Assembly: GCA_030147925.1 (NCBI GenBank) | Contig: JASBUK010000098.1 | Coordinates: 1-37,289, forward strand | Reading direction: 5' to 3' | From: Trueperaceae bacterium | GTDB taxonomy: Bacteria; Deinococcota; Deinococci; Deinococcales; Trueperaceae | Length of the DNA: 37,289 nt | In this document: positions 24,507 through 25,712 of the stretch, piece by piece | Layout of the letters: each line of letters begins with the position of its first letter | Position numbering within the stretch: position 1 is the first letter of the stretch | Notes under the pieces: model-generated | The model's database searches: none | What the model saw: the letters and a program-made list of their open reading frames with translations, nothing else | What the model was told of the DNA's origin: nothing | Translations under genes and position numbers: made by a program

Positions 24507-24547
24507 AGCCAAGGTTTCCTTTAGCAAACGCTGTACAAAAATTTCAA

Positions 24548-24569
24548 GAGAGGGCTGGTCAACCCTCTC
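24548..24569. terminator. Hairpin between ribF and the DUF4342 gene
   Basis: GAGAGGG (24548-24554) pairs with CCCTCTC (24563-24569) around 8 bases, in the 95-base gap between these convergent genes. Neither side has a clean T run; the minus-strand side has TTGAAATTTTT. A shared weak terminator is the likely reading. Confidence 0.4.
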
Positions 24570-24601
24570 ACGGTCAAAGCAATTAGACTTTCTGCGCCAA
24601 T

Positions 24602-25162
24602 CTAGGCCGAAATCTCCGCCACCCGGTCTAAACCCGCCTCGGTAAATTCGGCGACTCTGCTTACACTATCCTTAGTCACTTTAGCGGCGCGATCTACTCC
24701 TCGCTTTGTGGTTTTAGCAACGCGATCAACACTCTTTTTAGTAGTCCTGGCTGCCTGGTCAACATTTTTCTTAGTTACTCTGGCTGAACTCGCCACACCC
24801 TTTTTAGCCGAACCGGCAGTCTTGGCGACATTTTCTCGTGCTGTTTCGATGACGCTAACGGGTTCTGCCTTTTTTTCATCCTTTTTGCGCTCGACGACAA
24901 TGGTTAAATTGGCAGCCAGGGCAGCAACCGAGCCAATTGCCGCCCACACAGGCAGCAGTGCGGCACCTACCACGCCAACCGTCAGTGGGATTTCAAGAAG
25001 GGTTTTGCCTTCCTCGTTCCTAAGGGCAATGCGGCGTACATTACCGGCCCGCACCAGTTCTTTTACCTTGTCAACGACTTCTTGAGCGTTCACGTGAAAG
25101 TCTTCAGTGACGACTTCTTCTTTTTTTGTTTTTGTTGTATGTTTTGTTCCCGTGGTAGTCAT
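24602..25162 (-). CDS. DUF4342 protein with C-terminal 11-residue repeats
   Basis: Protein of 186 residues with two parts. Residues about 18-92 match the DUF4342 pattern: EDFHVNAQEVVDKVKELVRA, NVRRIALRNEEGKTLLEIPL, TVGVVGAALLPVWAAIGSVA, then LTIVVER. The middle 61-86 is hydrophobic and could touch or span a membrane. Residues 107-183 are seven exact 11-residue units (for example TTKKSVDRVAK, TTKRGVDRAAK, VTKDSVSRVAE), Lys/Ala-rich and amphipathic, like the repeats of LEA-type or lipid-droplet-binding helices. Function is unknown. A desiccation, envelope or DNA-related stress role is speculation. The ATG has AAAGGAG upstream. The promoter region contains an inverted repeat. Confidence 0.8.
   Translation of the reverse strand: MTTTGTKHTTKTKKEEVVTEDFHVNAQEVVDKVKELVRAGNVRRIALRNEEGKTLLEIPLTVGVVGAALLPVWAAIGSVAALAANLTIVVERKKDEKKAEPVSVIETARENVAKTAGSAKKGVASSARVTKKNVDQAARTTKKSVDRVAKTTKRGVDRAAKVTKDSVSRVAEFTEAGLDRVAEISA
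24614..24844 (-). repeat. Seven tandem 33-base units (11-residue hendecads) in the DUF4342 gene
   Basis: Units run from residues 107, 118, 129, 140, 151, 162 and 173, each with the pattern xTKxxVxxxAx. Units 3 to 6 are the most alike. The exact 11-residue register with no insertions suggests expansion by duplication and selection for a continuous amphipathic helix. Confidence 0.85.
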
Positions 25163-25193
25163 AGCATCTCTCCTTTAGACATTTTGCGGCCCA

Positions 25194-25245: not shown

Positions 25246-25275
25246 ATCACCCCTTGGGGTGAGTCAAGGGGTGAT
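25246..25275. repeat. Strong inverted repeat upstream of the DUF4342 promoter
   Basis: ATCACCCCTTG (25246-25256) pairs perfectly with CAAGGGGTGAT (25265-25275) around 8 bases. The arms contain further CACCCCTTGG/GGGGTGA echoes. There is no T run on the plus strand beyond TAAAGC, so it is a poor terminator. An operator or RNA structure is possible. Confidence 0.5.
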
Positions 25276-25361: not shown

Positions 25362-25658
25362 TCAGGCTTTTATGCGCTGACTCGGTGGCAACGACGGCTG
25401 ATGGGAGAAATAAAAAGCAACCTTTTTCTCCTGAAAATCAGAACTCCAGCTAACCACATCCGCATAGGAATTAAGTAGTTTGTGCAAACCGCCGGAGCAT
25501 ATCCAGGCTAGGTCCCTATCAGAGACTTCAAATTCCAGCTGGTATTCATGTCTGTTAAAGCGGACGCAGCAATCAAATGACTTTAGCTCTCCAACAAGCA
25601 ATTGCACACGGTTTAAGGGCGCATTTTTCTTGACTGTTAACTGGCTGAGATAATTCAC
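25362..25658 (-). CDS. Small protein of unknown function
   Basis: Product of 98 residues, start GTG at 25658 (VNYLSQLTVKKNAPL) chosen because GGAGG lies 5 bases upstream. A longer GTG start at 25685 would add nine residues without a ribosome site. The sequence alternates hydrophobic and polar residues (VQLLVGEL, CCVRFN, YQLEFEVSDRDLAWIC, KKVAFYFSH), suggesting a small mixed alpha/beta cytosolic domain. There is no signal peptide or membrane segment. I recognise no family. It lies between DUF4342 and the peroxiredoxin on the same strand, with about 170 bases to the latter. Confidence 0.6.
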   Translation of the reverse strand: MNYLSQLTVKKNAPLNRVQLLVGELKSFDCCVRFNRHEYQLEFEVSDRDLAWICSGGLHKLLNSYADVVSWSSDFQEKKVAFYFSHQPSLPPSQRIKA

Positions 25659-25712
25659 GCCGACCTCCAGGCTGGAAAACCCCACAAGCTTCTAAAACCA
25701 TTGAGCTAACCG

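Follow-up and report, generated by a model that had tools for sequence, protein, structure and literature searches.

The gene described here lies in a window of 37,289 nucleotides (the whole stretch of DNA analysed) from a Trueperaceae bacterium of the phylum Deinococcota, related to radiation-resistant bacteria, whose genome (G000; 2.98 Mb in 151 contigs) is the single representative of its genus in the sample. It encodes a DUF4342 domain followed by a tail of 11-residue repeats (Table 1). The gene looks real because a Shine-Dalgarno-like sequence precedes it, the domain is conserved and a terminator-like hairpin follows the stop codon. This hairpin, which a simple pattern scan missed and folding energy found, sits between ribF and the convergent DUF4342 gene. 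Upstream on the same strand, beyond a gap of about 200 bp, are a 107-aa ORF and a peroxiredoxin gene. The 107-aa ORF (25362-25685, minus strand), placed between the peroxiredoxin and DUF4342 genes, has no Pfam and no significant NCBIfam match. A perfect inverted repeat between this ORF and the DUF4342 gene has no match in Rfam and is a candidate terminator lacking a U-run, or a candidate operator. A phage or plasmid origin was rejected, with no plasmid match and no PHROG match below E 0.018.

Table 1. Features of the DUF4342 gene and of the acyltransferase gene of the same genome (positions are those of the window, except in the last row)
Feature	Position	Strand	Remarks
CDS, DUF4342 + 11-residue-repeat tail	24602..25162	-	186 aa; ORF translation
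AAAGGAG, Shine-Dalgarno-like	25170..25176	-	ends 7 nt before ATG
DUF4342 domain (PF14242)	24887..25111	-	residues 18-92; profile E 1.3e-24, 86.5 bits vs 25-bit cut-off
Second helix of core, entirely hydrophobic	24917..24973	-	residues 64-82; bears family signature LLPVWAAIG
Seven 11-residue units	24623..24853	-	residues 104-180; residues 181-186 form a partial eighth unit in the same register
Continuous predicted helix	24608..24796	-	residues 123-185; AlphaFold pLDDT about 75-89, blocks from residue 131
Terminator-like hairpin + U-run	24537..24572	-	after stop; -15.2 kcal/mol, z -3.0
Perfect 11-bp inverted repeat ATCACCCCTTG-N8-CAAGGGGTGAT	25246..25275	-	z -4.65; one copy in genome
Wax-ester synthase/diacylglycerol acyltransferase (WS/DGAT) gene	L214 11535-13034 (G000:C19)		both Pfam domains

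The DUF4342 domain recognised in an earlier note on this DNA was confirmed: the match passes the curated cut-off of PF14242, of which the protein is a full member, and the conserved core residues of the family (R43, P59, G63, P71, W73 and G77, from alignments of 48 and 57 sequences) are present. The core is predicted by AlphaFold to adopt a beta-alpha-beta-beta-alpha-beta topology. Its second helix has a 19-residue Kyte-Doolittle mean of 2.07, and each of the 129 distinct DUF4342 proteins collected has a value above 1.6. This helix probably associates with the cytoplasmic membrane, by lying on it, inserting into it or binding a partner at it. A PDB search with either model of the core gave no match at E 0.001, so docking is proposed from hydrophobicity.

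The tail consists of the units VIETARENVAK, TAGSAKKGVAS, SARVTKKNVDQ, AARTTKKSVDR, VAKTTKRGVDR, AAKVTKDSVSR and VAEFTEAGLDR, followed by VAEISA. The earlier note had described seven exact repeats, rich in Lys, Thr and Val-x-x-x-Ala, at residues 107-183. A composition rich in Lys, Thr, Val and Ala and the number of units hold, and the best register is shifted (Table 1). Exactness applies to the spacing, which is free of indels, and not to the units themselves, whose mean pairwise identity is 36% in protein and 48% in DNA. Similarity at lag 11 reaches z 10.3 (identity) and 10.9 (BLOSUM62) relative to shuffles, none of 2000 being as high, and similarity at lag 22 is likewise high. Tandem Repeats Finder reports no DNA array at the tail, and identical residues in the same register use the same codon in 26 of 83 cases (28.5 expected), so synonymous codons coincide no more often than codon usage would give. 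Recent tandem duplication of the units was rejected on these grounds. The low DNA identity, the lack of an array and the random codons together indicate that the pattern is maintained in the protein sequence and did not arise by recent slippage.

The hydrophobic moment of the tail peaks at 98.5 degrees per residue, vs 98.2 for an 11/3 helix, and its value at the peak is 0.38, vs 0.30 for the best of 2000 shuffles. The tail has the 11-residue period and the moment near 98 degrees expected of exchangeable 11/3 amphipathic lipid-binding helices, which share a mode of action and are no single family. On the helical wheel, Val/Ala, Thr, Val and Ala form a wide, weak apolar face (about 160 degrees), and Lys, Asp, Lys/Arg and Arg form the polar face; the net charge is +9. 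A disordered tail without amphipathic character, the outcome set beforehand in the earlier note as counting against its reading, was not seen, since AlphaFold gives a helix with a pLDDT of about 75-89. The bulk values of the tail (moment 0.38, hydrophobic fraction 0.37, aromatic fraction 0.01, charged fraction 0.35) lie in the range published for 11-mer helices that bind lipid, for which the same four quantities are 0.35/0.37/0.01/0.23 in Plin3, 0.30/0.47/0.02/0.24 in alpha-synuclein and 0.39/0.40/0.065/0.35 in ApoA-I (PMC5889406 Table 1). This comparison is approximate, because the tail was treated as a whole and the published values are Heliquest means. The charged fraction of the tail exceeds those of Plin3 and alpha-synuclein.

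The same regularity could instead reflect a hendecad coiled coil, that is, a right-handed stalk whose core positions hold Val, Val/Ala, Ala and Thr and that would make the DUF4342 protein oligomeric. The strict period without indels, the single long straight helix of the AlphaFold model and the existence of one register that sets V, V/A, A and T at a/d/e/h are all in favour of such a stalk. However, the core positions hold just one Leu and one Ile, located at the array ends, profile searches matched no coiled-coil family, and the wide, weak apolar face is better suited to adsorption on a surface. A coiled coil is considered unlikely.

Profile searches point in the direction of lipid surfaces. 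The tail alone scores 24.5 bits against Pfam Synuclein (PF01387; cut-off 23.3, E 3.5e-5) and matches Apolipoprotein (E 0.0087) and Phasin_2 (E 0.01) more weakly, all E-values that tend to be too optimistic for a repetitive sequence such as this one. None of the three matches appears in seven composition shuffles of the tail. Two permutations that preserve the register both retain a weak Synuclein match (E 0.0046 and 0.019), so the likeness depends mainly on the 11-residue register, a sign of convergence. The Synuclein cut-off is passed in one of 111 Deinococcota genomes, by the tail protein itself, and in none of 14 control genomes. From the sequences compared, the resemblance to synucleins appears to be convergence of a repeat pattern rather than proven descent. 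Together with the 11/3 moment peak and the bulk values, these register-dependent matches favour the amphipathic lipid-surface helix that had been proposed from the sequence. A phasin of polyhydroxyalkanoate (PHA) granules was rejected: the score against PF09361 is 16.4 bits (cut-off 24.9), and a search of the genome for PHA synthase gave no match, PhaC_N being absent.

The LEA-like character also suggested in the earlier note was weakened. Under this alternative, the tail would be of the group-3 LEA type and would shield proteins or membranes during drying, as may be envisaged from Deinococcus radiodurans DosH/DR_1172, which carries eight 11-mers (PMC6559209). The tail shares with DosH the 11-residue repeat, the hydrophobic positions and the phylum. 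The group-3 motif has hydrophobic residues at positions 1, 2, 5 and 9, acidic or amide residues at 3, 7 and 11 and basic residues at 6 and 8 (PMC10295645); the tail agrees with it at 27 of 28 hydrophobic positions, if Thr is counted as hydrophobic, but at only 11 of 35 charged positions. Most of the acidic/amide positions are occupied by Lys or Arg, and position 8 by Asn, Gly or Ser. Group-3 LEA identity was rejected on this charge pattern, and the less hydrophilic face and the fusion to DUF4342 likewise set the protein apart from DosH. LEA_4 (PF02987) matches neither the protein nor anything else in the genome at E 1, which is weak evidence because none of the 111 Deinococcota genomes yields a hit above the cut-off of this model. 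The presence of the host in Deinococcota is circumstantial as a sign of a link to stress, and a protectant role is rated distinctly improbable.

Of the genomes searched, 33 of 39 in Trueperaceae and 47 of 111 in Deinococcota encode DUF4342. A wider collection, judged by its 80 best loci, adds Chloroflexota, Caldisericota, Patescibacteria and others. The survey of DUF4342 proteins for such tails, proposed in the earlier note, returned none beyond the present one: among 129 distinct proteins, a sample in which Bacillota and distant lineages are under-represented, the 11-residue-periodic tail occurs once and is absent from the other 128. Other tails are nearly all short, acidic or Pro-rich, and some members are tailless. 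A search with the tail only across 39 family genomes gave nothing convincing besides the window gene (best other E 0.035). A tail inherited or common within the family was rejected on the strength of both results. DUF4342 has no recurrent gene neighbour: among the 138 proteins encoded nearby in about 37 loci, the commonest family appears in 4. The domain is not mentioned by name in the literature searched. Tandem pairs of DUF4342 genes are frequent in Deinococcota (L005 5249-5638, L043 5197-5589, L045/L046, L052, L161 4078-4482). In several Trueperaceae, the second gene directly follows the first and encodes a divergent paralogue with a longer and more hydrophobic segment, which suggests that this second copy may be a membrane-embedded partner.

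The host genome holds two further DUF4342 genes. One (C135, L002 1480-2466) is tailless and precedes a gene for a LiaI/LiaF-like membrane protein, a hint of an envelope-stress context. The other (C22, around 13184, L001 1480-2238) encodes 252 aa; its tail is basic and amphipathic but irregular, and includes a His/Arg-rich stretch (HRHHRHRHHRRH). The protein also has a helix-hairpin-helix region, which scores 24.0 bits, below the 27-bit cut-off. This second gene comes shortly after a pstB-like gene that is read in the same direction.

A nucleic-acid bridge, with the basic tail on DNA or RNA and the core at the membrane or a droplet, has a precedent in Rhodococcus MLDS, which links lipid droplets to DNA via a basic tail (PMC5504291), and would draw on the net charge of the tail, with nothing specific beyond charge, and on the region that follows the basic tail of the C22 relative; yet the tail has no recognised DNA-binding motif, lacks the PAKKA motifs of MLDS and places its charges on a single side of the regular 11/3 helix, and this is the least probable of the alternatives.

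The genome that carries the tail also encodes an apparently intact WS/DGAT (PF03007, E 1.2e-43; PF06974, E 9.7e-41), in which the HHxxxDG sequence reads HHCIADG. Its gene directly follows clpC-, radA- and PIN/TRAM-type genes, which are ordinary chromosomal genes. The contig on which it lies agrees with the window in GC content (0.528 vs 0.523) and in tetranucleotides (r 0.75); the WS/DGAT gene and the tail gene are on different contigs and are not adjacent. WS/DGAT occurs in only two of the 111 Deinococcota genomes searched, and the other one (G023) has DUF4342 without such a tail. If the two traits were unrelated, the chance that the one tail genome falls among these two would be about 2/111, or about 0.04 for two storage enzymes tried, for a co-occurrence that concerns one genome, was looked for post hoc and is confounded with lineage. 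The co-occurrence is at most suggestive.

With slightly better than even confidence, the protein is read here as having two parts, a membrane-linked DUF4342 core and a convergent lipid-surface helix of the synuclein/perilipin type, possibly located on neutral-lipid droplets. Lipid binding, membrane docking and droplet location are what we infer from the computed features. The C-terminal 80 residues or so would make up one long amphipathic 11/3 helix, chemically of the kind found in synucleins, perilipins and apolipoproteins, with a wide and weakly apolar face of Val/Ala/Thr, almost no aromatics and a polar face of Lys/Arg. Such a helix may adsorb flat on an anionic lipid surface, attracted by the head groups, and its adsorption would be stable through length and repetition rather than through bulky side chains. 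The surface in question could be the inner membrane, droplets of wax ester or triacylglycerol, or the membrane where droplets bud. Droplets may be the target because the host possesses an acyltransferase for neutral-lipid synthesis, an enzyme seldom seen in its phylum. The further step, that the protein is a DUF4342-anchored droplet coat with an independently evolved perilipin/synuclein chemistry, in a Deinococcota bacterium that would store neutral lipid by means of WS/DGAT, is tentative and on balance doubtful.

Both the DUF4342 family and, from animals, the chemistry of the helix are already known, and we found no earlier description of their combination in the literature searched. A DUF4342 member with a recognisable lipid-surface helix offers a handle on the role of the domain, and work at lipid surfaces is directly testable. 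If the protein does coat droplets, lipid surfaces would be the first functional context for DUF4342. If the tail binds lipid, bacteria would offer a clear instance in which the synuclein/perilipin repeat evolved convergently, and the protein would be a lead towards a droplet coat beyond the known bacterial droplet proteins.

Among known systems, the tail resembles synucleins in its 11-residue repeat, in the core T-K-x-(G/N/S)-V of its central units and in its weak Val/Ala/Thr apolar face. The whole protein scores 20.2 bits against the Synuclein profile, below the 23.3-bit cut-off that the tail alone passes. The protein is not filed as a synuclein, because both the KTKEGV hexamers and the acidic tail are absent: no unit holds a full hexamer, and the protein ends inside the repeat at residue 186, the acidic C-terminal region being missing. 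The net positive charge, the fusion to DUF4342 and the bacterial host are further differences from synucleins. Perilipins are approached in bulk values (near Plin3), in a positive net charge as in Plin4, in the scarcity of aromatics and in the placement of Thr and Val on the apolar face. In contrast to Plin3 and Plin4, the tail spans only about 83 residues, has more charged residues, matches no perilipin profile and is not accompanied by a four-helix bundle. In actinobacteria, droplet proteins have been described (PMC5504291, PMC6176652). MLDS, TadA and HBHA belong to another phylum and have no detected sequence relation to the present protein, and the lysines lie within the amphipathic repeat in the tail vs in PAKKA motifs in the bacterial droplet proteins. 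Like MLDS, TadA and HBHA, the DUF4342 protein is small and combines a hydrophobic or amphipathic part with a Lys-rich part; the Apolipoprotein profile is matched by both HBHA and the tail, and the bacterial hosts would be alike in storing neutral lipid, as judged here by analogy from the WS/DGAT gene.
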